From Deltaproteobacteria bacterium (GTDB lineage Bacteria > Myxococcota_A > Polyangia > Polyangiales > JADJMO01), in the NCBI GenBank assembly GCA_025363655.1, contig JANYDK010000032.1, positions 1-64,000 of the forward strand: a DNA stretch of 64,000 bases, in the 5' to 3' direction. Under the pieces are notes generated by a model that saw nothing but the letters and a program-made list of their open reading frames with translations, did no database searches and was not told the DNA's origin. The position numbers and the translations under genes were made by a program. How positions within the stretch are numbered: position 1 is the first letter of the stretch; the number at the start of each line of letters is the position of its first letter. Positions 15,876 through 31,649 of this stretch are shown here, piece after piece.

Positions 15876-17966
15876 TCAACTCGGGTTTCCGGCCTCGCTC
15901 AGCTTCGGCATCGGCACGGTCTTCCGCTGCTTCAGGTCGATGCGCACCGGGAGCACGATCATCGGGACGCCGACGTGCTGAAGACGCTGCTGAATCAAGA
16001 ACGCGGTCTCGTTGTGGAGCACGCGATTCCAGGTCGTGTCCTCTTCGAAAATCAGCTGCCCGGCGACGACGAGGCCCTTGGGATAGCGCTTGATCATCTC
16101 GAGGCCGAGGTGCTGCGCTTCGAGCGCGACCTCGGTGCCGATGGCGAAGGCGCTCGCGGCAGGGAGGCCGAGGGTCTCGGCGAAGAGCTCGTAGCGGAGC
16201 AGACTCTCGCGCGTACGTTGCTCGAGCGCGGCGAGTTGGTCTTGGCCCTTGAACGACTCCGAGTCGACGACGGCGACGCTGACGAAGACGACGCCGGCGA
16301 AATGACCGGGAAACATTCGCATCATCGTCAAGAGCGCATGACGGCCGAGGCCGCTGTAGCCGCCGACGAAGAGGATGGCGACCGGCTTCTTCGCGTCCGG
16401 CTCGGTGCGACCGTGATGCTCTTCGAGGTGCGGATCGGCGCCGTGCTCGAAGGTCTTCGCCTCGCGTTCGAGGTTGCGCTTGGCTGCGATTTCCACCTCT
16501 TCGGGGGAGGGGAGCTCGGCGTCGAGCTTGCGCAGCCCCTGCACGACGGCCTGGTAATGCCGCTTGATGGCGAAGCAGAGGAGGACGAGGCCGAAGGTGA
16601 TGACCAGCGTCACCCAGCCGCCCTCGAGGAATTTCTCGAAGATGGTGATCGCGAGAATGGTCACGCAGAGGACGAGCGCGAGGAGGTGCGCCGGCAGGTG
16701 GCGCTTCCAGTCGGGGAACTCTTTGCGACGGCGAATCCAGAAGCGCGCCATCGCCAAGTTGGAGAGCGAAAACGTCACGAAGACGTTGATCGAGTACATG
16801 ACGACGAGCTTGCTGACGTCGCCCCGCGTGTAGATGAGCGCAGCCGCTGCCGCGCCGGCCATCAAGACCACGCCGTTGCGCATCGAGAGTCGTTCGGAGA
16901 GCGCGGCGAAGCGGTGGGGCAACCAAGAGTCGGTCGCCATGTTCGCCATCACGCGCGGTCCATCGAGAAAACCAGCCTGCGCGGCGACGAAGAGGAGCGC
17001 GCCCTCGGAGACGAGGGTGACGATGATGAAGCCCCAACCGATCTTGACGCCGCCGAGGTGCCAGCCGCTCGCCATCCTCTCGAGGAGGACTGCGTTCATC
17101 GTCTTGCCCTCTTCTGCGTGGGCGTGGAGCAAGAGGTAGCTGAGCATGATGCCGCCGGCGGTGATGGCGAGCGAGACGGCCATCAAGACCATGGTCTTCT
17201 TCGCGGTCTGCACGCGAGGCTCGCGCATCATCGCGACGCCGTTGGAGACGGCCTCGATGCCGGTGTAGGTACCGCCGCCCATGGAGTAAGCGCGGACGAA
17301 GAGCGAGAGCGCGCCGACGATGCCGAGGTTCTTCACCGAGGTGCCGAGGTTGCTCTTCACCTCGGCCGAGACCGCGCCGACGTCGCCGAGATGACCGCCG
17401 ATGGCGACGATCAAGACGATGGCGTGGGTGACGAGAAATATGCCGAAAATGGGCACCAGCGCGGAGACCGACTCCTTCGCGCCGCGCATGTTCATGAGCG
17501 TCAAGATCGCGAGGCCGGTGAAGGTGAAGGGGAGCTTCAGCCAGTGCAGGCGCTCGGGGATGAAGCTGAAGATGGCGTCGGCGCCGCTGGCGATCGAGAT
17601 GGTGATCGTGAGCACGTAGTCGACGAGCAGCGCCGCGCCGGAGACGACGCCGACGCGCGGTCCGAGGAGCGAGGTGGCGACGACGTAGCCACCACCGCCG
17701 CTCGGGAAGTGCTCGATGATGCGCGAGTACCCGTAGCTGATGATGAAGACGGTCGCGGCGGTCGCGAGCGCGAGGAAGAACGCGAGACCGGTGTGCTCGC
17801 CGAGCGCGCGAAACGACTCGTCGGGGCCGTACGCCGAGCTACTCAGCCCGTCGGCACCGAGGCCGACCCACGCGAGGAAGGCGATCAGCGAGAGTTTGTG
17901 GAAAGCGTGCGGATCTTTGACGTCCTTCGGCGCACCGAAGAAAAAACGGCGAATGCTGGTCGGCAT
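15876..17966 (-). CDS. KimA-like potassium transporter (KUP/APC family)
   Basis: 696 residues. About twelve membrane segments lie between residues 25 and 480, followed by a cytosolic universal-stress-type domain ending AFLIQQRLQHVGVPMIV. The opening IRRFFFGAP, DGLSSSAYG, FPSGGGGYVV and LVDYVLTITISIASGADAI match Bacillus KimA (YdaO) closely. The residues recalled as K+ ligands in KimA are all in register here: D39, Y46, D116, T120, S124, T235 and E238. The protein should therefore import K+ with protons rather than amino acids, although general tools would call it an amino-acid permease. A GTG at 18008 would add 14 residues; the ATG at 17966 starts where KimA starts. Divergent from kup. Confidence 0.82.
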   Translation of the reverse strand: MPTSIRRFFFGAPKDVKDPHAFHKLSLIAFLAWVGLGADGLSSSAYGPDESFRALGEHTGLAFFLALATAATVFIISYGYSRIIEHFPSGGGGYVVATSLLGPRVGVVSGAALLVDYVLTITISIASGADAIFSFIPERLHWLKLPFTFTGLAILTLMNMRGAKESVSALVPIFGIFLVTHAIVLIVAIGGHLGDVGAVSAEVKSNLGTSVKNLGIVGALSLFVRAYSMGGGTYTGIEAVSNGVAMMREPRVQTAKKTMVLMAVSLAITAGGIMLSYLLLHAHAEEGKTMNAVLLERMASGWHLGGVKIGWGFIIVTLVSEGALLFVAAQAGFLDGPRVMANMATDSWLPHRFAALSERLSMRNGVVLMAGAAAAALIYTRGDVSKLVVMYSINVFVTFSLSNLAMARFWIRRRKEFPDWKRHLPAHLLALVLCVTILAITIFEKFLEGGWVTLVITFGLVLLCFAIKRHYQAVVQGLRKLDAELPSPEEVEIAAKRNLEREAKTFEHGADPHLEEHHGRTEPDAKKPVAILFVGGYSGLGRHALLTMMRMFPGHFAGVVFVSVAVVDSESFKGQDQLAALEQRTRESLLRYELFAETLGLPAASAFAIGTEVALEAQHLGLEMIKRYPKGLVVAGQLIFEEDTTWNRVLHNETAFLIQQRLQHVGVPMIVLPVRIDLKQRKTVPMPKLSEAGNPS

Positions 17967-18190
17967 GGCGGCTCGACGCTCTTGCGAGCGCTCCCTCGAG
18001 GCCGACACCGCGCTTTCGCTCGATGATCGTCCTCCTCCTCACGCCTGCGGGGTTAGCTGACGGGCTGGGGCCGGAAGAGTGGCCCTCGTCGCGGTCGCGT
18101 GATCGACGGTGTCGTCATTGGTCACGTCCTCCACGTCGTTCGCCCCGGAGAGCGCGCTGTTTCATGAGCGCGATCGCTTGGGTCCCCCGT

Positions 18191-18210
18191 CGATCGAGAT
18201 CGCTCGATCG
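18191..18210. repeat. Perfect 8-bp inverted repeat upstream of kup
   Basis: CGATCGAG (18191-18198) and CTCGATCG (18203-18210) are exact reverse complements around a four-base loop. No T-tract follows and it lies between divergent genes, so an operator is more likely than a terminator. Confidence 0.5.
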
Positions 18211-18390
18211 TTCGGCGTAGAGGCAAGGTGGTGCTCGGCGCCCAGCGTGGCAACGAAAAACCAAGAGAAATCAGCGTCGACTGCAGGCGCGCATCGTCCT
18301 GACTCTCGAGGCGTGCCAGCGACTGCCGATTCGCAATGCAAAACTGCAGAACTGCATCGTGCGCGTTCTCTCGGGGGGCGAGTTGAGTTA

Positions 18391-18400: not shown

Positions 18401-20380
18401 GTGTCGTCCTCTGACGCGAGCGCGTCCCCCGGTCCCTCGAGTCCCGCACCCGAGCCGGCGCCAGAAACGCATGGTCATACCAGCGGGTCGATCACCAAGC
18501 TCGCGCTCGGTGCGCTCGGCGTCGTCTACGGCGACATCGGCACCTCACCGCTCTACTCGGTGAAAGAGTGCTTCACCCAGCCGCACGGCGTCGCGATCAA
18601 CGAAGCCAACGTCCTCGGCATTCTCTCGCTCATCGTCTGGTCGCTCGTCCTCGTCGTCGTCGCCAAGTACATCACCTTCATCATGCGCGCCGACAACGAC
18701 GGCGAAGGCGGCATCCTCGCGCTCCTCGCCCTCGTCATTCGTCCGCCGCGTGGAGCGAACGGCGGCGACTCGGTCCCCGCCTCGCGCCGCATGTCGCCGA
18801 AGACGACGGTCTTCCTCGTCTTCATGGGCCTCTTCGGCTCGGCGCTGCTCTACGGCGACGGCATGATCACCCCGGCGATCAGCGTGCTCTCCGCGGTCGA
18901 AGGTCTCTCGGTGGCGACGCACGCGTTCGACAAGGTCGTCGTCCCCATCACCTGCGTCATCCTCGTCGGCCTCTTCCTCGTGCAGCGCCGCGGCACCGCC
19001 AAGGTCGGCGCCATCTTCGGCCCGGTGATGCTGGTGTGGTTCTTCGCCATCGCTGCCATCGGTGTGCCGTGGATCCTCAAGGCGCCGCGCATTCTCCACG
19101 CACTCAACCCAGTGCATGGCGTCCGCTTCTTCATCGATCACGGCACGCACGGCTTCCTCGTCCTCGGCTCGGTCGTCCTCTGCATCACCGGCGGCGAGGC
19201 GCTCTACGCCGACATGGGACACTTCGGCGTGCGACCGATTCGCATCGCTTGGTACGCGGTCGCGCTCCCGGCGCTGCTCCTCAACTACTTCGGGCAGGGC
19301 GCGCTCCTCCTCACGAAGGGCGCGTCCGTCGGTCATCCGTTCTTCGAGCTCGTCTCGGGATGGATGCTCTACCCGATGGTGGTCGTCGCCACCGTCGCCA
19401 CCGTCGTCGCCTCGCAAGCCCTGATTTCCGGCGCATTCTCGCTCACGCAGCAGGCCGTGCAGCTCGGCTACTGCCCGCGCGTCGCCATCGTCCACACCTC
19501 TGGCGAAGCCGAAGGGCAAATCTACGTGCCGGAGGTGAACAACCTCCTGATGGTCGCCTGCGTCGCCTTGGTGCTCGCGTTCGAGAAGTCGGAGAACCTG
19601 GCGGCCGCGTACGGCATCGCCGTCACCGGGACGATGAGCATCACGTCGGTGCTCTTCTACTACGCCGCGCGCAACCGCTGGGGTTGGAGCAAGCTCAAGG
19701 CCGGCTCACTCGTCGGCGGCTTCCTCATCTTCGACCTCGCCTTCTTCTCGTCGAACCTCGTGAAGTTCATGCACGGCGGATGGTTCCCCGTGGTCATCGC
19801 CATCGCCATCTTCACGATCATGACGACGTGGAAGCGAGGCCGTGCAGCCCTCGGCGCCTACATGCGCAGCGCGACCCTCCCCCTCGAGGCGTTCATGATC
19901 GATCTCGAGGCGATGAAGCCGCACCGCGTGCAGGGCACGGCCGTCTTCATGACGTCGAACCCCGAAGGCGTACCGCCCGTTCTCTTGCACCACTTCAAGC
20001 ACAACAAGGTGCTCCACAAGCAGGTGCTGCTCCTCTCGGTGCTCACCGCGCACGCGCCGCAAGTGCAGCGCAAAGAACGCGTCACGGTCACCGAGGTCGG
20101 CCAAGGCTTCTGGCAGGTCTCCGCGTCCTACGGCTTCCTCGAACAGCCGAACGTGCCGGAAATTCTCGGCCTCTGCGCGAGCTCGGGCCTCCGCACCCAC
20201 CAATCCGATACCAGCTACTACCTCGGCCGCGAGACGCTGCTGACGACGGGTAAATCCGGCATGGCGCGTTGGAGAAAAATCCTCTTCTCCTTCCTCAGCC
20301 GCAACGCGCGCACGGCCACGAGCTTCTTTCACATCCCGCCGAACCGCGTCGTCGAGATGGGAATCCAGGTCGAGCTCTAG
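18401..20380 (+). CDS. kup: Kup potassium uptake transporter
   Basis: 659 residues, slightly long for Kup because of a Ser/Pro/Glu-rich N-terminal extension of ~30 residues. The family signature LGALGVVYGDIGTSPLYS opens the first membrane helix, then RADNDGEGGILALLAL, YGDGMITPAISVLSAVEG and ALYADMGHFG follow. About twelve membrane segments end near residue 455, and a ~190-residue C-terminal cytosolic domain (MTSNPEGVPPVLLHHFKHN) is typical. It imports K+ with H+ across the inner membrane. It starts with GTG and is divergent from the KimA-like gene, so two KUP-family systems share one control region. Confidence 0.96.
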   Translation: MSSSDASASPGPSSPAPEPAPETHGHTSGSITKLALGALGVVYGDIGTSPLYSVKECFTQPHGVAINEANVLGILSLIVWSLVLVVVAKYITFIMRADNDGEGGILALLALVIRPPRGANGGDSVPASRRMSPKTTVFLVFMGLFGSALLYGDGMITPAISVLSAVEGLSVATHAFDKVVVPITCVILVGLFLVQRRGTAKVGAIFGPVMLVWFFAIAAIGVPWILKAPRILHALNPVHGVRFFIDHGTHGFLVLGSVVLCITGGEALYADMGHFGVRPIRIAWYAVALPALLLNYFGQGALLLTKGASVGHPFFELVSGWMLYPMVVVATVATVVASQALISGAFSLTQQAVQLGYCPRVAIVHTSGEAEGQIYVPEVNNLLMVACVALVLAFEKSENLAAAYGIAVTGTMSITSVLFYYAARNRWGWSKLKAGSLVGGFLIFDLAFFSSNLVKFMHGGWFPVVIAIAIFTIMTTWKRGRAALGAYMRSATLPLEAFMIDLEAMKPHRVQGTAVFMTSNPEGVPPVLLHHFKHNKVLHKQVLLLSVLTAHAPQVQRKERVTVTEVGQGFWQVSASYGFLEQPNVPEILGLCASSGLRTHQSDTSYYLGRETLLTTGKSGMARWRKILFSFLSRNARTATSFFHIPPNRVVEMGIQVEL

Positions 20381-21466: not shown

Positions 21467-21739
21467 GTGATCTACGTCGACGCGCTGCGTTTCCACGAAC
21501 GAGGTTGCCGCTCGGGCAGCTGGTGTCACCTCGCGACCGACGGCGAACTCGACGAATTGCACGACTTCGTGCGCCAAATCGGCCTCCCGCGAAGGGCGTT
21601 CCATGCGCATCCTCGTCATCCGCACTACGATTTGAACGGCGACGCGCGCGAGTTGGCGATCGCTGCCGGTGCGATCGTCGTCACGTCGAAGGAGTTGGTG
21701 CGGCGATGCTTTCGTCAGGGTGGCGGCAAGTCGGCGTAG
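21467..21739 (+). CDS. DUF4031 small protein
   Basis: 90 residues, starting with GTG. The sequence MIYVDALRFHE, WCHLATDGELDELHDF, the HYDLNGDAR segment and the final GAIVVTSKELVRR match the small DUF4031 family, which has conserved His/Asp residues suggesting a metal or nucleotide site; its function is unknown. Probably cytoplasmic. It sits 19 bp after the MBL lipoprotein gene and overlaps the next gene's chosen start, so the three are likely one operon. Confidence 0.82.
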   Translation: MIYVDALRFHERGCRSGSWCHLATDGELDELHDFVRQIGLPRRAFHAHPRHPHYDLNGDARELAIAAGAIVVTSKELVRRCFRQGGGKSA

Positions 21740-24039
21740 TGCGAGCGCTCGCGTGCTTCGCGGGGTTCACGTGTGCGCTAGCTTGCAAAGACGACGACAC
21801 GCCGCATCCGACGCTGGCGACGCTCGATGCTTCGCCCGACGCCGCGACGGTGGCCGATGCGCTCTTCGACGTCGAATTCGAAGACGCCGCGAGCGACGTG
21901 CCTCCCGTCCGTGAAGACGAGCCGCCGCCGCTGACGATCGGACTCGACGCGATTCGTCTTTGGCATCGATGGCCCTACCTCCGCATCGGTGCGCGTACGT
22001 ACATGCGAAGCACGTACGATCGCAGCGGTGGCAACGAGGCGGCCGATGCCAGCCACTTTCTCCGGCAAGACGCGCCCGATCACAACGTCACGCTCGACGT
22101 CGTCGGCAACGGCGTCCTCTCGTTCGTTCGCACCAACCACTGGCACGGGAGCCCCTGGCACTACATCGTCGACGGTGCCGATCACGTGGTCACCGAGACC
22201 TCGACCGCCGATCCCGATCATCCGATTTCCGGCTCGACGTTCGAGCCAAAGGCGCTCTTTCCCGCGCCCCTCGCGCTCACCTGGTCGACGACAAAAGGCG
22301 CCGATCTCAACTGGGTGCCGATGGAGTTCGCGCACTCGTTCACGCTCGCCTACGGGCGAACGTTCTACGGCACGGGCTACTACATCTACACGCTCCTGCC
22401 CTTCGGTGAGCACGCCCTGACGAGGCCATTTCGCCCGTGGGATGGCACGATGGCGCCCGACGCGGCGCTCCTCTCGCTCGTCTCGCACGCCGGGGAAGAC
22501 CTCGCGCCGACGGGCGATCGCGTGCTCACCACGCGCGGCTCCGTCGACGTGCCAGCGAGCGGGTCCGTCACGCTCCTCGAAGCGACCGACGCGCCGGCGA
22601 TGGTGCGCGCGCTCAAGCTCTCCGTCGATCGCGGGCTCGAGGAGACGCTCGGTCACGCGCGGTTGCGCATCACCTGGGACGATCGCCCGCAGCCCTCGGT
22701 CGATGCACCGATCGCCTTATTTTTCGGCACCGGAACGACGTTCAATCGTACCGGGCGCGAGTACTTGGTGAAGGCGCTCCCGTTCTCCATCCACTTCGAC
22801 AGCCGTGAGGTCACCTTCGCCACGTACTTTCCGATGCCCTACTTCCGCAAGGCGCGCATCGAGCTGATCAGCTCGGGCGAAGCAGTGACGGGCGTTCGTT
22901 TCGAAGTGCGCACCGAGCCATATCGAGGCGGGTCGCGACACGTCGGATACTTCCACGGTACCTACGTCGATCACGGCGTGCCGACGCCGGGGAAGGACTT
23001 GGTCCTCCTCGACACGAGGTCGCACGAGGGCGGCGGCGGCGATGCCGAGTGGTGCGGCCACTTCGTCGGCACCTCGTTCGTCTTCAGCGATCGCGGCGCG
23101 CTCGGCACGCTGGAGGGCGATCCGCGCTTCTTCTTCGACGACAGCCTCTCGCCGCAAGGGCAGGGGACGGGCACCGAAGAGTGGGGCGGTGGCGGTGACT
23201 ACTGGGGTGGCGAGACGATGACCTTGCCGTTCGCGGGTCACCCCGTCGGGGCTTCGGCCGAAAAAGCGGTGAACGCCGACGACAAGATCAACTCCGCCTA
23301 TCGCGTGCTCCTCGGCGACGCGATGCCCTTCGGGCGCAACGCGCGCATCCAGCTCGAGCACGGCGGCGTCGACGATTCGGTCGAGCACTATCGCAGCGTC
23401 ACCTATTGGTACGGGCTGCCGGGGAGCTGTCTCCGGCTCACCGACGCGCTGCAACTCGGCGATCTGCTCGACGAAGCGAAGCACCACTTCGTCGATTCAC
23501 TCACGTCGCCGCCCGAGACGCTGGTCTCGCGATGGGAGTGGGGCGTCGATCACTTCGGCCCCGCGGAGGTGCAGAAGGAGACGACCGACGTCGGGCGACA
23601 CACCACCGGCACGAGCGAGCTGACGCTGACCATCGATCCCGAGAATTTCGGCGTGCTCCTCCGCCGTCGGCTCGACTACGGATTTCCCGATCAACGCGCC
23701 GACGTCTTCGTCGCCGACGCCAGCGAAGGTGCGCCCGCGGATGCACCCTTCGCACCGGCGGGCACGTGGTTCCTCGCCGGGAGCAATCGCTGTCTCTACA
23801 TGTTCCCTGCCGCCGAAACCGGCACCGCCACGCCGCGCGTCGAGACGTCGAATCGGCGTTTTCGCGAGGACGAGCACTTGATCCCGCGCCGCCTCACCCG
23901 TGGCCGTTCGGCGATTCGTGTGCGCATCGTCTTTCGGCCGGTCGATCGCGCGATCGCGCCCGGTGAGGCGAAGGTGCCGCTCGCTTGGAGCGCCTTCCGC
24001 TACTCCGCCTACGTCGAGACCTTGCCGCCGTCGCCGTGA
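21706..24039 (+). CDS. DUF2961 (GH172-like) lipoprotein
   Basis: 777 residues. A lipoprotein signal (VVRALACFAGFTCALAC) precedes an Asp/Ala linker. The body has the DUF2961 features: an N-terminal beta-rich half (HYIVDGADHVV), then GTGTEEWGGGGDYWGG (family form GTGTEDYFGG), INSAYRVLLGDAMPF, ARIQLEHGG and HYRSVTYWYGLP. DUF2961 corresponds to glycoside hydrolase family 172, whose studied members act on fructose- or arabinose-containing glycans. The Glu in GTGTEE is at a conserved acidic position. A second DUF2961-like beta-sandwich probably follows (~600-770). Start alternatives: ATG 21706 with AAGGAG upstream, or GTG 21739, which gives a tighter signal peptide. Substrate unknown. Confidence 0.78.
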   Translation: MLSSGWRQVGVVRALACFAGFTCALACKDDDTPHPTLATLDASPDAATVADALFDVEFEDAASDVPPVREDEPPPLTIGLDAIRLWHRWPYLRIGARTYMRSTYDRSGGNEAADASHFLRQDAPDHNVTLDVVGNGVLSFVRTNHWHGSPWHYIVDGADHVVTETSTADPDHPISGSTFEPKALFPAPLALTWSTTKGADLNWVPMEFAHSFTLAYGRTFYGTGYYIYTLLPFGEHALTRPFRPWDGTMAPDAALLSLVSHAGEDLAPTGDRVLTTRGSVDVPASGSVTLLEATDAPAMVRALKLSVDRGLEETLGHARLRITWDDRPQPSVDAPIALFFGTGTTFNRTGREYLVKALPFSIHFDSREVTFATYFPMPYFRKARIELISSGEAVTGVRFEVRTEPYRGGSRHVGYFHGTYVDHGVPTPGKDLVLLDTRSHEGGGGDAEWCGHFVGTSFVFSDRGALGTLEGDPRFFFDDSLSPQGQGTGTEEWGGGGDYWGGETMTLPFAGHPVGASAEKAVNADDKINSAYRVLLGDAMPFGRNARIQLEHGGVDDSVEHYRSVTYWYGLPGSCLRLTDALQLGDLLDEAKHHFVDSLTSPPETLVSRWEWGVDHFGPAEVQKETTDVGRHTTGTSELTLTIDPENFGVLLRRRLDYGFPDQRADVFVADASEGAPADAPFAPAGTWFLAGSNRCLYMFPAAETGTATPRVETSNRRFREDEHLIPRRLTRGRSAIRVRIVFRPVDRAIAPGEAKVPLAWSAFRYSAYVETLPPSP

Positions 24040-24094: not shown

Positions 24095-24565
24095 ATGCCG
24101 TTCCATGCCCAGCTCGAAGCCGGCCGCGCCATCCCCGAGCTCCCGGCGCGCGTCCTCGTGCCCGTCGACTTCTCCGCCGAGTCCCACGCCGCGCTCCGTT
24201 ACGCATGCTCCATCGCCTCGGCCGATGCCCGCATCGAGGTCATCCACGTGTGGGATCTCCCCTCCTACGTCGGTGGCGCCCTCGTCCCCGGAAGCAACGG
24301 CGAAACGGCTGCAGAACGCGTGCAGTCGCTCGCGAGCGAGGCGCTCGACGTCTTCCTCGAGCCCTACCAGAACGACACGCGCATCATCGCCTCGCTCACC
24401 TCCGGCGATCCGACGCGCGTCGTGCCCGCGCTCACCGTTCGCTACGACTTGGTGGTGCTCGGTCGCAAGGCGCAGCAAGACGCGAAGCAGGTGATCCTCG
24501 GCAGCGTCGCGCAGCACGTGATCGCCGACGGCAAGTGCCCGGTCGTCACCATCACCGAGTCCTGA
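24095..24565 (+). CDS. Universal stress protein (UspA fold)
   Basis: 156 residues. RVLVPVDFSAESHAALRYAC is the usual beta1-alpha1 of UspA proteins. The C-terminal loop reads LGRKAQQDAKQVILGS, which is the ATP-loop pattern GxxGx9G(S/T) with the second Gly replaced by Ala, so ATP binding is uncertain. Cytoplasmic. It is followed after 12 bp by the NfeD-like gene and then two flotillins, suggesting the stress protein belongs to that membrane module. A TACGTC hexamer lies six bases before the ATG and could be another leaderless start, although it lacks the final T. Confidence 0.9.
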   Translation: MPFHAQLEAGRAIPELPARVLVPVDFSAESHAALRYACSIASADARIEVIHVWDLPSYVGGALVPGSNGETAAERVQSLASEALDVFLEPYQNDTRIIASLTSGDPTRVVPALTVRYDLVVLGRKAQQDAKQVILGSVAQHVIADGKCPVVTITES

Positions 24566-24577
24566 GCGAGCTCTCCG

Positions 24578-25114
24578 ATGCTCTTCGTCTACCTCGGCGC
24601 GCTCATCGCAGGGGCTGGGACCATCCTCCTCCAGGTGATCCTCGCGTCGGGTCATGGCGACGCCGACGCGCACGGAGAAGGGCACGCCGGCGATCACGAC
24701 GCCGGCGCTTGGACGGTGCTTCTCTCCACGCGTTTTTGGACGTTTTTGCTCCTCGCCTTCGGCCTCGTCGGCACCATGCTGACCCTCTTCCGATTGGCGT
24801 CGTTCGGCCTGTCGCTCGGTCTCGCGCTCGGCAGCGGCGTCGTCGCCGGGCTCGTCGCGGCGCTGACGTTCCGTGCTCTCCGGCGCTCGCAGGCGTCGAC
24901 CAGCGCCTCGATCGACGACGCCGTCGGCAAGCTCGCCCGCGTCGTCGTGCCCTGCGCCAAAGGTCGCATCGGCAAGGTCCGCGTCGAGCTCAAAGGCCAA
25001 TCGGTCGATCTGATGGCGATGACGGTCGAAGACGAGATCGGTACTGGCGCCGAAGTGGTCGTGGAAGAGATCAACGGCGGCGTGGCCCGGGTCGTGAAGG
25101 CCCCCGACGTCTGA
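24578..25114 (+). CDS. NfeD/YqiJ-like membrane protein with OB-fold tail
   Basis: 178 residues. Hydrophobic segments at ~1-25, ~48-70 and ~74-98 are separated by a His/Asp/Gly-rich loop (SGHGDADAHGEGHAGDHDAG) that could bind metal. Residues ~105-178 (GKLARVVVPCAKGRIGKVRVELKG...GTGAEVVVEEINGGVARV) are the OB-fold typical of NfeD proteins. NfeD-like proteins are encoded next to flotillins (YuaF-FloT, YqiJ-YqiK) and help organise the same membrane domains. That is exactly the arrangement here, with two SPFH genes downstream. Confidence 0.85.
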   Translation: MLFVYLGALIAGAGTILLQVILASGHGDADAHGEGHAGDHDAGAWTVLLSTRFWTFLLLAFGLVGTMLTLFRLASFGLSLGLALGSGVVAGLVAALTFRALRRSQASTSASIDDAVGKLARVVVPCAKGRIGKVRVELKGQSVDLMAMTVEDEIGTGAEVVVEEINGGVARVVKAPDV

Positions 25115-25205
25115 GTCGTTTGCGCACGGCCTCGCGCTCGACGCCGGTTGGCGCCTCGGAAGAAGGTCCATCTCGGTCGTTGATCGGCAAGCGCGGCGCA
25201 GGCGT

Positions 25206-26561
25206 ATGCTCGCCGCCATGCTCCTCGCCCAAGCGCCGCAAACTCCGCCTCCCAACGAACTCGGCGGGCTCGACATGAGCACCGCGATGGCGATTCTCTT
25301 CAGCGCCGTCGGCCTCGTCGTCGCCTTCGCGCTCTTCGTCTGGATGATGAGCCGCTTTCTCTACGTCTGTCGGCCGAACGAAATTCTCATCTTCGCGGGT
25401 CGTAAGCACAAGCTGCCCGATGGCTCGATGGTCGGCTACAAAGTGCTCCACGGCGGACGAGGCTTCCGCGTGCCGCTCCTCGAGACGGTCGCGCGCATGG
25501 ACATGCGGCTCTTCCCCGTCGAGGTCGCGGTGCAGAGCGCGTATTCGAAGGGCGGCATCCCGCTCACCGTCCACGCCATCGCCAACGTGAAGATCGCCAG
25601 CGATCCGGCGCACGTGCGCAACGCGGTCGAGCGCTTTCTCGGGAGCGGCATGCAACAGATCGCGCAGGTGGCGCAGCAGACGCTCGAGGGCGTGCTCCGT
25701 GAAGTGCTCTCGCAGTTGACGCCCGAGGAGGTCAACGAAGACCGCCTCAAGTTCGCCGAGGCGCTGATGCAGAACGCCAAGGACGACTTCGACAAGCTCG
25801 GCCTCGAGCTCGACGTCCTCAAGGTGCAGCACGTCAGCGACGATCAGCAGTACCTCGCCAACCTCGGACGCGCGCGCATCGCCACCATGATCCGCGACGC
25901 GCAGAACGCCGAAAACGCCGCCAACCAGACCATCTCCGAGGAGCAGGCGCAGGCCCGAACGCGCGCAGAATCGGCACAAAAACAGTCGGAAGCGCTGGTG
26001 TTGCAGAAACGCAACGGTCTCCGCGCCGAGCTCGCGCGGCTCGAGGCGTACGCCAAGTCGATCGAGAACGAGGCCGCCGTCGCCGCCGAGACGGCGCGCT
26101 CGATCGCCGAGCAGGATCTGCAGCTGAAGCGTGCCGAGCTCGAGCAGCTGCGCCTCATCTGCGACGTCGTCCTCCCCGCCGAGGCCAAGCGCGTCGCCGA
26201 CGAGTCGAAGGCGCGCGGCGCTGCGGCCCCGCTGGTGGAGAACGGCAAGGCGACGGCGTACGCGCTCGAGGTGGTCGCCGCGGAGTGGAAGGCGGCTGGC
26301 AGCGACGGCCGCGATCTCTACATCCTCCAGCAGCTCAAGCTCCTCGCCGAGTCGGCGATCGCGCGCGTGTCGCAGACCACCATCGGAGAGCTCGACATCG
26401 TCGACGGCGGAGACGGCGAGGCCTTCGGCGCGTTCGTCGCCAGCTACCCAGCGGCAGTGGCGAAGGTGATGGAGGAGACGGGCAGAGCCATCGGCCTCGA
26501 CGTCGGCGCATTGGTGCGGGGCGAGAAGCTCTCGCGTGACGGGAAAGAAGGCGCCAAGTGA
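25206..26561 (+). CDS. Flotillin-like SPFH protein, first copy
   Basis: 451 residues. A short Ala/Gln/Pro-rich N-terminus, one membrane segment (~27-49), the SPFH domain (~50-230: CRPNEILIFAG, RVPLLETVARMDM, SAYSKGGIPLTVHAIANVKI), then a long coiled coil rich in Glu/Ala/Gln (~225-335) and a C-terminal domain ending in LVRGEKLSRDGKEGAK. YqiK/FloA-type architecture: membrane scaffold proteins of detergent-resistant domains. The stop codon overlaps the next flotillin's GTG start by four bases. Alternative start: ATG 25218. Confidence 0.92.
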   Translation: MLAAMLLAQAPQTPPPNELGGLDMSTAMAILFSAVGLVVAFALFVWMMSRFLYVCRPNEILIFAGRKHKLPDGSMVGYKVLHGGRGFRVPLLETVARMDMRLFPVEVAVQSAYSKGGIPLTVHAIANVKIASDPAHVRNAVERFLGSGMQQIAQVAQQTLEGVLREVLSQLTPEEVNEDRLKFAEALMQNAKDDFDKLGLELDVLKVQHVSDDQQYLANLGRARIATMIRDAQNAENAANQTISEEQAQARTRAESAQKQSEALVLQKRNGLRAELARLEAYAKSIENEAAVAAETARSIAEQDLQLKRAELEQLRLICDVVLPAEAKRVADESKARGAAAPLVENGKATAYALEVVAAEWKAAGSDGRDLYILQQLKLLAESAIARVSQTTIGELDIVDGGDGEAFGAFVASYPAAVAKVMEETGRAIGLDVGALVRGEKLSRDGKEGAK

Positions 26562-27814
26562 TCCCCATTCTCTTCGTCCTCGGCATCACCGCGCTCATCG
26601 TCCTGCTGTTTCTCAGCTTCATGGTGCGCAAGCTGCTCTACGTCAGCGCACCCAACGAAGCGCTCATTTTCTCGGGTGGAACGCATCCGGCGTTGGGGGC
26701 TGGCGCCCGTGGCGAGCGTGGGTATCGCGTCGTCCGCGGAGGTCGTGCGCTGCGGGTGCCCCTCTTCGAGCGCGTCGACAGCATCGATCTCTCCAACCTC
26801 TCGATCGACATCGAGGTCAAGGGCGCGTACTCGAAGGGCGGCATCCCGCTCAACGTCCATGGCGTCGCCAACGTGAAGTTGCCGGGCGAAGAGCCGCTCC
26901 TCAACAACGCCATCGAGCGCTTCCTCGGCCGCACGCCGCCGGAGATCTCGCGCATCGCCAAGGAGACGCTCGAAGGCAACGTCCGCGGCGTCCTCGCGCA
27001 GCTCTCACCGGAAGAGGTCAACGCCGACAAGACGCGCTTCGCCCAGACGCTGCTCGAGGAGGCCGAGCACGACATGAACCGCATGGGGCTCGTGCTCGAC
27101 AACCTCAAGATCCAGAACGTGACCGACGAGGTTGGATACCTCAACTCGATAGGTCGCATTCGTGGCGCGACGGTGAGGCAGGGCGCGACCATCGCCGAAG
27201 CGAGCGCGCAGGCCGACGCCGCCGAGCAGCAGGCCCGCAACTGGTGCGCCTCCGAGCTCGCGAAGATGGACGCCGACCTCGCGATCGCCCAACAAGAAAA
27301 CCAGAAGCGAGTCGCCGACGCGCAGACCAAACGCCAGGCGCTTATCGCCGAAGCGCAAGGCGAGGTGCAGGCGCACGTGGCACAAATCACTGCGGAAATC
27401 GAGCGTCAAAAGGCACGCGCGCCGCAGGTGAAGCGGCAGCTCGAGGCCGACGTCGTGCAACCCGCGGAGGCCGAGAGGCGAGCGCGCGAAGAGCAAGCGC
27501 GCGGCAACGCGGCGACCATCGTCGAGCGGGGCAAGGCGGAGGCCGAAGCGTTGCGGAGCGTCGTCGAAGCTTTCCGGAAGTCGGGTTCGACGGCGCGCGA
27601 GGTTCTCGCCTTGCAGAAGCTGCTCCCGCTCGTCGCCGACATCGCCGGCGCCAGGCAGAAGCTCTCGATCGGACGCGTCTCGGTCCTCCCGAGGGACGCC
27701 GCACAATCGGGCGGTGGCGCCGCGCGCACGCTCATCGGCGCCAACACCCAGCTCAAGGCAGCCACCGGTGTCGATCTCGCCGACGCAATCAAGAAGCTGG
27801 GCGCGAAGACTTAG
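26558..27814 (+). CDS. Flotillin-like SPFH protein, second copy
   Basis: 418 residues, GTG start inside the GTGA overlap with the first flotillin and preceded by GGGAAAGAAGG. Membrane segment ~3-22, SPFH domain ~25-205 (SAPNEALIFSGG, SIDIEVKGAYSKGGIPLNVHGVANVKL), coiled coil ~205-345 dense in Ala/Glu/Gln/Lys, then a Gly-rich tail. It keeps the same AYSKGGIPL and ERFLG segments as its neighbour but diverges elsewhere, so the two are old paralogues, probably forming hetero-oligomers. Its end overlaps the convergent dehydrogenase gene by four bases. Confidence 0.92.
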   Translation: MIPILFVLGITALIVLLFLSFMVRKLLYVSAPNEALIFSGGTHPALGAGARGERGYRVVRGGRALRVPLFERVDSIDLSNLSIDIEVKGAYSKGGIPLNVHGVANVKLPGEEPLLNNAIERFLGRTPPEISRIAKETLEGNVRGVLAQLSPEEVNADKTRFAQTLLEEAEHDMNRMGLVLDNLKIQNVTDEVGYLNSIGRIRGATVRQGATIAEASAQADAAEQQARNWCASELAKMDADLAIAQQENQKRVADAQTKRQALIAEAQGEVQAHVAQITAEIERQKARAPQVKRQLEADVVQPAEAERRAREEQARGNAATIVERGKAEAEALRSVVEAFRKSGSTAREVLALQKLLPLVADIAGARQKLSIGRVSVLPRDAAQSGGGAARTLIGANTQLKAATGVDLADAIKKLGAKT

Positions 27815-30356: not shown

Positions 30357-31649
30357 TCAGCGCGACCGACGGACGCGGTGCGCGTCGAGTGCGACCTCGA
30401 CGTCGGAGAACGAGCGCACTTCGCGGCCGATCTTCTGCTCCGTCTCGTGACCTTTGCCGGCGATCAAGACGACGTCGGTCTCCGCCGCGCCCTCCACCGC
30501 GCGCCGGATCGCTTCGGCACGATCGAGGACGACCTCGACACCGCCGTGACCTTGGAGACCTTGGTGAATCGACTCGGCGATCACTTTCGGATCTTCGTCG
30601 CGTGGATTGTCGGTCGTCAGCAGCACGTGGTCTGCTGGACGCGCGGCCTCTCCCATCGGCGCACGCTTGTCGCGATCACGGTTGCCGCCGGCGCCGAAGA
30701 CGACCCATAGCTTAGCTATACAAATCTGCTTGGCGGCGGCGACGGTGCGGGCGAGCGCGTCGGGGGAGTGTGCGTAGTCGACCACCACCCACGGCCGTTC
30801 GGCGATGACCTCGAACCGACCGCGTGGCGGCGAAGCAGCAGAGATGCGCGCGGCCGCGACGTCGAACGGAATACCGGCGGCGTGGGCGCCGAGGAGCGCC
30901 GCGAGCGCGTTCTCGGCGAACACCTCTCCGATGGCGCGCACGTGGAGCTCACGTGGCAGTTTTTCGGCCTTGCGAGGATCTCCGGCGACCAGCGTCATCG
31001 TCGTCCCCTCCCACCCGATGCGCACTTCACTCGCCCGCACGTCGAGCGGCGCGATCGCTGCCCCGCGACTCGGCACTCCATACCGGAGCACGCGCACCCC
31101 CTCGGGAATCACCTCCGCGAGGAGCGCACTCGAAGCATCGCACCCATTGAGCACCGCAGCGCCGCCGACAGGAAGCGCGACAAACAGCTGCGCCTTGCTC
31201 GCCAGGTAGTGCTCGGGACTGCCGTGCGCATCGAGATGATCGTGCGTCAGGTTGGTGAACACCCCAATCTGCACCGGCCACGCCCGCGCGAAACCGAGGG
31301 CCAGCGCCTCGCTCGTGAACTCGATCGCTGCTTGCCGACTCCCGCGCGCATGACACTCGCGGAGCGCCGCGAGGAACCCGTCGTGATGGGTCGGCACCGG
31401 AAGCGAGGTGTGACCTTCGAAGAAGCCGAGCGTGGTGATGCAAACGGGGGGAGGTGCGCCCGGCTCGGTGATCGCGGCGGCGAGCCAGGAGGTGGTGGTG
31501 GACTTGCCGTTGGTGCCGGTGACGCCGAGGGTGAGGTAGTCGGAGGACCAGGGGGGCGGGGGCGGAGGGGCCTGCGGCACGGGGGGAAGATAGCGCGCCA
31601 CCGCCAGCGCCAGCGCCAGCGCTTGCAAATTGCCCGATGAATCAAGCAA
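30357..31649 (-). CDS. MurE-like Mur ligase lacking the N-terminal domain
   Basis: 430 residues. P-loop GTNGKST at 45-51, the carbamoylated-Lys region HYLASKAQLF, the ATP/metal region NLTHDHLDAHGS, DYAHSPDAL, and GKGHE at 398-402. DNPRDEDP at 347 is the signature linked to meso-diaminopimelate recognition. True MurE has about 65-70 more residues before the P-loop, forming the domain that binds the UDP-MurNAc part; here only a short Ala/Pro-rich leader is present. There is no ATG: the likely start is TTG at 31649, and the frame is blocked by a stop about 50 bases upstream. No cell-wall cluster genes flank it. It probably ligates an amino acid to a Mur-peptide-like acceptor, or has a changed acceptor. 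Confidence 0.82.
   Translation of the reverse strand: MLDSSGNLQALALALAVARYLPPVPQAPPPPPPWSSDYLTLGVTGTNGKSTTTSWLAAAITEPGAPPPVCITTLGFFEGHTSLPVPTHHDGFLAALRECHARGSRQAAIEFTSEALALGFARAWPVQIGVFTNLTHDHLDAHGSPEHYLASKAQLFVALPVGGAAVLNGCDASSALLAEVIPEGVRVLRYGVPSRGAAIAPLDVRASEVRIGWEGTTMTLVAGDPRKAEKLPRELHVRAIGEVFAENALAALLGAHAAGIPFDVAAARISAASPPRGRFEVIAERPWVVVDYAHSPDALARTVAAAKQICIAKLWVVFGAGGNRDRDKRAPMGEAARPADHVLLTTDNPRDEDPKVIAESIHQGLQGHGGVEVVLDRAEAIRRAVEGAAETDVVLIAGKGHETEQKIGREVRSFSDVEVALDAHRVRRSR

Follow-up and report, generated by a model that had tools for sequence, protein, structure and literature searches.

A tandem pair of flotillins encoded with NfeD across Myxococcota, and the heteromeric scaffold that it may build

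The window analyzed here is a 64,000-nucleotide stretch of DNA from a member of the Polyangiales (Myxococcota; assembly GCA_025363655.1, contig JANYDK010000032.1, positions 1 to 64,000) that encodes an NfeD-type membrane protein followed by two diverged flotillins, which we call FloA and FloB. The conserved unit is NfeD-FloA-FloB and not the four genes that are obtained when a preceding universal stress protein (Usp) gene is included. We propose, with a probability of roughly 0.6, that these three genes form an operon whose products assemble into a single, heteromeric flotillin scaffold. The gene order, the old paralogy of the flotillins, their co-retention, their domain make-up and the asymmetry of their charges are established directly and are described first.

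The four open reading frames (ORFs; Usp, NfeD, FloA, and FloB; Table 1) share one strand (+) and are separated by gaps of 12 bp and 91 bp and by a 4-bp overlap; the GTG start of FloB falls within the 3′ end of FloA. The original prediction, made from the sequence alone, described a four-gene cluster with two diverged flotillins joined by a GTGA overlap, and this description holds: all of the ORFs are real, the overlap is present, and both flotillins belong to the Band_7 family with a mutual identity of 40% (over 377 columns).

To place this arrangement in the phylum we read 94 loci from about 90 Myxococcota genomes (including L035 and L036), 60 of them hand-picked from genomes that match FloB. 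L033 and L034 were dropped because they duplicate the contigs of L039 and L040; two genomes (G002, with L038 and L066; G025, with L067 and L068) each contribute two contig fragments, possibly of a single operon, which are counted as two of the 94. FloA and FloB are encoded in tandem, A then B, on one strand in 92 of the 94 loci, and the remaining two (L038 and L068) are truncated by a contig end. In 87 loci the gene for NfeD precedes the pair on the same strand; in five it was not found, that is, in three near contig ends (L066, L067, and L149) and in L053 and L169. With start codons picked by script, the A-B junctions overlap in 50 of 92 loci (22 by 4 bp, 27 by 1 bp) and are within 20 bp in 74, the widest gap being 87 bp.

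The two flotillins are also retained together. A FloA-like match occurs in 32 of 56 related genomes and is strong (E < 1e-90) in 29, all of which encode both A and B. Of 377 genomes searched in the phylum, 131 contain a match to FloB (E ≤ 1e-40); the number of matches is two in 123 of these, one in 3, three in 3, and four in 2, with scoring limited to four candidates in each genome and with a split gene able to count twice. Two genomes contain two complete, diverged NfeD-FloA-FloB modules (G053, L047/L048; G038, L063/L065). The A-B pair of L126 (G324) is preceded by a short additional ORF that resembles a flotillin; in the window genome no third flotillin was detected (beyond the pair, nothing matches FloB at E ≤ 0.001). 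The module is a known type in a new, very consistent form across Myxococcota. Literature searches returned no paper on flotillin together with NfeD in Myxococcota and, judged from titles and the starts of abstracts, none about flotillins among those retrieved for flotillin in myxobacteria.

Both proteins exceed the cut-off of the Band_7/SPFH family (23.6 bits), and their only sequence matches in the PDB at E ≤ 0.001 are FLOT1 and FLOT2 chains. In a Foldseek search with the FloA model, ranks 1–4 are chains of the flotillin complex. The architecture of FloA consists of an N-terminal membrane helix, the SPFH domain, a long coiled coil (helices 216–363 and 365–390 in the model), and a C-terminal helix; the coiled-coil region of FloB was assigned by alignment to FloA. 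Both are flotillins (SPFH2), as each has an SPFH domain and a long coiled coil and is closer to flotillins than to stomatin, prohibitin, or HflK/C. They score 132.9 and 169.6 bits against the FloT equivalog NF058507, for which the cut-off is 700, so by this measure they appear to be relatives of FloT and not FloT itself.

As the identity of 40% points to an origin by gene duplication, one of the two could be a regulatory or decaying duplicate, with the other alone forming the working scaffold. The sequences argue against this: 71 alignment columns carry the same conserved residue in FloA and FloB, the mean column identity is 48% among A proteins and 53% among B proteins, and none of the 29 genomes with a strong match holds just one flotillin. 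We consider this explanation very improbable.

The history of the pair was examined with a tree of 60 proteins from 24 loci that were hand-chosen for spread. In this tree A and B each form one clade (support 100/99 each). A pair encoded by an Acaryochloris plasmid (L176) is divided between them, its first gene in the A clade and its second in the B clade; the gene ahead of this pair (L176 4102–4482), annotated as hypothetical, encodes an NfeD homologue (profile E = 2.6e-17). In a separate comparison of all 182 A and B proteins, which left out L038 and L068 (cut by contig ends) and L126 (with the extra ORF), the five best matches of every protein are solely from its own positional class. The Acaryochloris pair is the one piece of evidence for A and B outside Myxococcota; the pairing may be ancient in the two phyla, or the operon may have been transferred from one to the other.

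In the same tree FLOT1 (included as a 275-residue stretch only) and FLOT2 are sisters (100/99), located outside A + B in the part of the tree that holds the flotillins of Priestia and Enterococcus. For this reason we rejected orthology of the bacterial pair with FLOT1 and FLOT2. Since FLOT1 and FLOT2 group with each other and apart from the A and B clades, flotillin pairs have at least two origins, and the A/B and FLOT1/FLOT2 duplications are, as judged from the tree, separate events.

The identification of the third component required more than a family search. The window NfeD alone has no Pfam match, PF01957 finds nothing in the whole window genome, and the direct match to YuaF is weak (E = 0.02). 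However, a profile built from 37 NfeD orthologues matches YuaF (PDB 2k14) with E = 2.6e-9, its further weak matches include NfeD-type entries, and 17 of the 37 orthologues match PF01957 (E ≤ 0.01). The model (predicted local distance difference test, pLDDT, 89) contains helices 2–24, 51–70, and 76–108 followed by an OB-like β-barrel (strands 119–174); in Foldseek against the PDB, its ranks 1–3 are YuaF, the QmcA-YbbJ complex, and a stomatin operon partner. We rejected the reading that no NfeD is present, which the missing Pfam match would suggest, because the profile, the model, and the fold search all point to NfeD. The homology recovered by the profile, the helices and barrel, and the neighboring SPFH2 gene in the window and in 87 of the 94 loci identify the protein as NfeD2-type (YuaF-type).

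The loop between helices 1 and 2 of this protein is rich in Asp, Glu, and His, and residues 29–33 and 35–38 are modeled with pLDDT < 50; the His/Asp-rich loop that had been noticed in the sequence, and proposed there as a possible metal-binding site, is present. In a comparison of 88 NfeD proteins, using loop boundaries from one alignment and with some start codons possibly wrong, His makes up 6.4% of loop residues and 0.9% elsewhere, Asp and Glu together make up 27% of the loop, at least three His occur in 39 of the 88 loops, and the consensus is a run of D-x-D-x. The common feature is the acidic Asp-x-Asp repeat, His is variable, and His as a constant feature of the loop was rejected because the acidic repeats are commoner. 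Basic residues (RALRR) follow the last helix, so the OB domain is probably cytoplasmic and the acidic loop would lie on the cytoplasmic side.

The question is then whether FloA and FloB assemble together. In the coiled coil, B carries the more positive net charge in 83 of 92 pairs (3 equal), and at the C-terminus in 84 of 92 (5 equal); in the SPFH domain, used as a control, B is more positive in 50 of 92 (10 equal). These counts exclude L038, L068, and L126 and keep L066 and L067, in which A is cut. The Acaryochloris pair has coiled-coil charges of −10 and −2 and equal C-termini. From co-retention, paired copy number, overlapping genes, and this charge asymmetry we infer that FloA and FloB probably form a heteromer.

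Several observations weigh against this inference or against the three-gene unit. NfeD is divergent in L043 and L044, it was not found near the A-B pair in L053 and L169 even when an NfeD profile is used, and 3 of the 131 FloB-positive genomes have a single match. The loci share ancestry, so the charge counts are not independent trials, and tandem neighbors are co-inherited whether or not their products interact. A search for A-B covariation (mutual information, 90 pairs with A longer than 300 residues) found 2–6% near the diagonal where 4% is expected, that is, no enrichment, in a set that may be too small to have power. In Bacillus subtilis, FloA and FloT are reported to interact and partly co-localize but, in the part of the report available, favor homo-oligomers (PMC4409396); a second report, likewise available in part, places their co-localization under 2% (PMC4928834).

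The B. subtilis data and the missing covariation signal would be expected if FloA and FloB were co-expressed and formed separate homo-oligomeric scaffolds with different clients, an arrangement that has been proposed for the B. subtilis proteins. However, the available text on B. subtilis also describes FloA and FloT as different in length (331 and 509 residues) and in regulation (PMC4409396), whereas the window proteins are similar, full-length flotillins; the A and B genes often overlap and are co-retained phylum-wide, and the charge asymmetry is located in the regions of oligomerization. We regard separate homo-oligomers as unlikely. The heteromer is plausible: the hetero-oligomeric scaffold of the original prediction would agree with the phylum-wide order, the paired copies, the overlaps, and the charge differences.

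If FloA and FloB form a heteromer, translational coupling would produce them close to 1:1, each would be held in the membrane by its N-terminal helix, and contacts between the coiled coils and between the C-terminal regions would join the two in a cage or ring at the inner membrane face. NfeD, with three membrane helices and an OB domain, would be a dedicated partner of the scaffold, as YuaF/NfeD2 is for FloT and YbbJ for QmcA, and the scaffold may hold membrane proteins in place or organize them and may also tune membrane properties. Cage, stoichiometry, and function are, like the heteromer itself, inferred. A bolder version, to which we give somewhat less than even odds, is an obligate FloA:FloB cage with built-in NfeD that evolved independently of FLOT1/FLOT2; the duplication would predate the spread of the operon in Myxococcota and cyanobacteria, and the cage would enclose the acidic NfeD loops.

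The gene ahead of NfeD encodes a protein with the Usp domain. ATP-binding Usp proteins have the loop motif G-x2-G-x9-G-S/T. An alignment gives the loop as GRKA…GS, where the solved relative TeaD has GAQG…GS, so the second glycine of the loop is lost and the protein does not fit the motif of the ATP-binding branch, in agreement with the altered ATP loop ascribed to it at the outset. Its nearest homologues within the family (L107–L110) have altered loops too, and GxxG is kept in most other Usp proteins compared.

The original prediction made this protein the leader of a four-gene cluster for a stress-responsive scaffold; in such a module Usp would sense stress and control the scaffold. Consistent with such a role, the gap between Usp and NfeD is only 12 bp, and in G002 and G004, two genomes of the window's family, the contig with the flotillins also carries the best Usp match, on the same strand and ~9.6 and ~6.6 kb upstream. 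However, no Usp gene adjoins the module at any of the 94 loci compared, some of which end shortly ahead of NfeD, and this includes the loci of the four genomes of the window's family; the window genome has nine Usp-family matches; in G148 a Usp match lies ~1.8 kb downstream of the module. As the adjacency is seen in the window genome alone, we rejected the four-gene order, and the stress-responsive reading loses its support because it was based on a gene that is not conserved next to the module; a Usp-led stress module is highly unlikely. Comparing loci in this way corrects the first reading by removing the stress protein from the module, and Usp looks like a lineage-local neighbor. Given the short gap, Usp may share a transcript with NfeD-FloA-FloB in the window strain. 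A promoter scan found 0 sites and a terminator scan 2 sites, both within chance expectation; a DUF2961 gene on the same strand ends 55 bp ahead of the Usp start, so a local transcript could start further upstream.

At other loci the module has other neighbors. At least 1.2 kb of downstream sequence is available in 87 of the 94 loci, and some large flank clusters that resembled antisense artefacts were disregarded. In 11 loci outside the window's class an HflX-type GTPase gene follows FloB on the same strand at 4–205 bp; the one in L153 (572–2365, −) has the Pfam domains GTP-bdg_N, GTP-bdg_M, and MMR_HSR1, and the other 10 were grouped with it by BLAST clustering. No such gene follows FloB in the window. 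In Escherichia coli, hflX adjoins hflK and hflC. In eight loci (L137, L142, L144, L150, L151, L153, L158, and L165), a gene of one family for a small membrane protein, which by eye we presume to resemble DUF423, is located just ahead of NfeD.

Elsewhere in the window, a riboswitch for cyclic di-AMP (c-di-AMP) lies directly upstream of an amino-acid-permease-like transporter gene and faces a Kup-type K+ transporter gene, and it is possible that c-di-AMP controls potassium uptake in this region. A Mur-ligase-like protein downstream of the module has the middle and C-terminal domains; its N-terminal Mur ligase domain was not detected.

Table 1. Features of the NfeD-flotillin locus and its surroundings (window positions, except for the last row, which lists other loci).
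Feature	Position	Strand	Basis or remark
UspA-family protein	24095..24565	+	PF00582 73.8 bits (cut-off 24); local neighbor, outside conserved module
NfeD2-type membrane protein, 178 residues, YuaF-like	24578..25114	+	profile, PF01957 in orthologues, model, Foldseek
NfeD loop, helix 1–helix 2, residues 24–46, Asp/His rich, predicted disordered	24647..24715	+	loop comparison, consensus, model
Flotillin A (FloA), 451 residues	25206..26561	+	PF01145 86.6 bits; PDB FLOT1 E = 1.6e-27; model; Foldseek
Flotillin B (FloB), 418 residues, GTG start, FloA paralogue	26558..27814	+	PF01145 62.9 bits; PDB FLOT1 E = 2.3e-36
GTGA stop/start overlap, FloA-FloB	26558..26561	+	read in sequence; overlaps common in relatives
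DUF2961 protein	21505..24039	+	
Amino-acid-permease-like transporter	15879..18008	−	
c-di-AMP riboswitch	18027..18227	−	RF00379 59.4 bits (cut-off 38)
Kup-type K+ transporter	18401..20380	+	
Mur-ligase-like protein	30360..31649	−	
HflX-type GTPase loci	L138, L142, L146, L150, L151, L153, L155, L158, L161, L162, L165		families f32, f34, f37, f40, f41, f60

Each known system shares part of this module. E. coli QmcA-YbbJ (PDB 8z5g) is a solved SPFH-NfeD complex that is matched by both the NfeD and the FloA models; however, it has a single SPFH type that is stomatin-like and not a flotillin. HflK/HflC resembles FloA/FloB as a paired SPFH heteromer, and in some Myxococcota an HflX-type GTPase gene follows FloB, but the two proteins belong to the HflK/C subfamily and not to the flotillins. 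HflK/C also faces the periplasm.

The closest arrangements are cyanobacterial. Hinderhofer et al. (2009; PMC2636767), in the part of the paper available, describe NfeD accompanied by a single SPFH2 gene or by two, and ascribe the two-gene form to a duplication in cyanobacteria; their Syc1604_d/Syc1607_d/Syc1608_d, that is, NfeD2 and two SPFH2 flotillins in one operon, resembles the module described here, and that portion of their cyanobacterial account makes no mention of myxobacteria. The Acaryochloris plasmid locus has the same order (NfeD, then A, then B), but its NfeD lacks the long acidic loop that most Myxococcota NfeD proteins have. In B. subtilis YuaF-YuaG, according to the available part of the same paper (PMC2636767), an NfeD2 gene is located directly ahead of the gene for a flotillin (FloT), and YuaF is closest to the soluble domain of the window NfeD; the operon differs in having a single flotillin, the second (FloA) being encoded elsewhere with another type of NfeD. 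The B. subtilis FloA/FloT may, perhaps, be unrepresentative of bacterial flotillins generally. As for function, Staphylococcus aureus FloA, studied with NfeD, holds unfolded membrane proteins according to the accessible portion of that report (Ukleja et al., 2024; PMC11222466), the nearest tested function that we found for such a module.

The vertebrate FLOT1/FLOT2 (PDB 9bq2, 9l3g) are also two paralogues and are the best match in both sequence and structure. They differ in their history, in that their pairing appears to have arisen separately from that of A and B. To our knowledge, they have neither an NfeD partner nor an N-terminal membrane helix. Their cage contains 22 copies of each protein, which are mutually dependent, as given in the available part of its description (PMC11775717). 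For the question of why animals use two flotillins per cage, an independent, phylum-wide pairing in bacteria is a natural comparison; traits common to both pairs would indicate the purpose of having two subunits.

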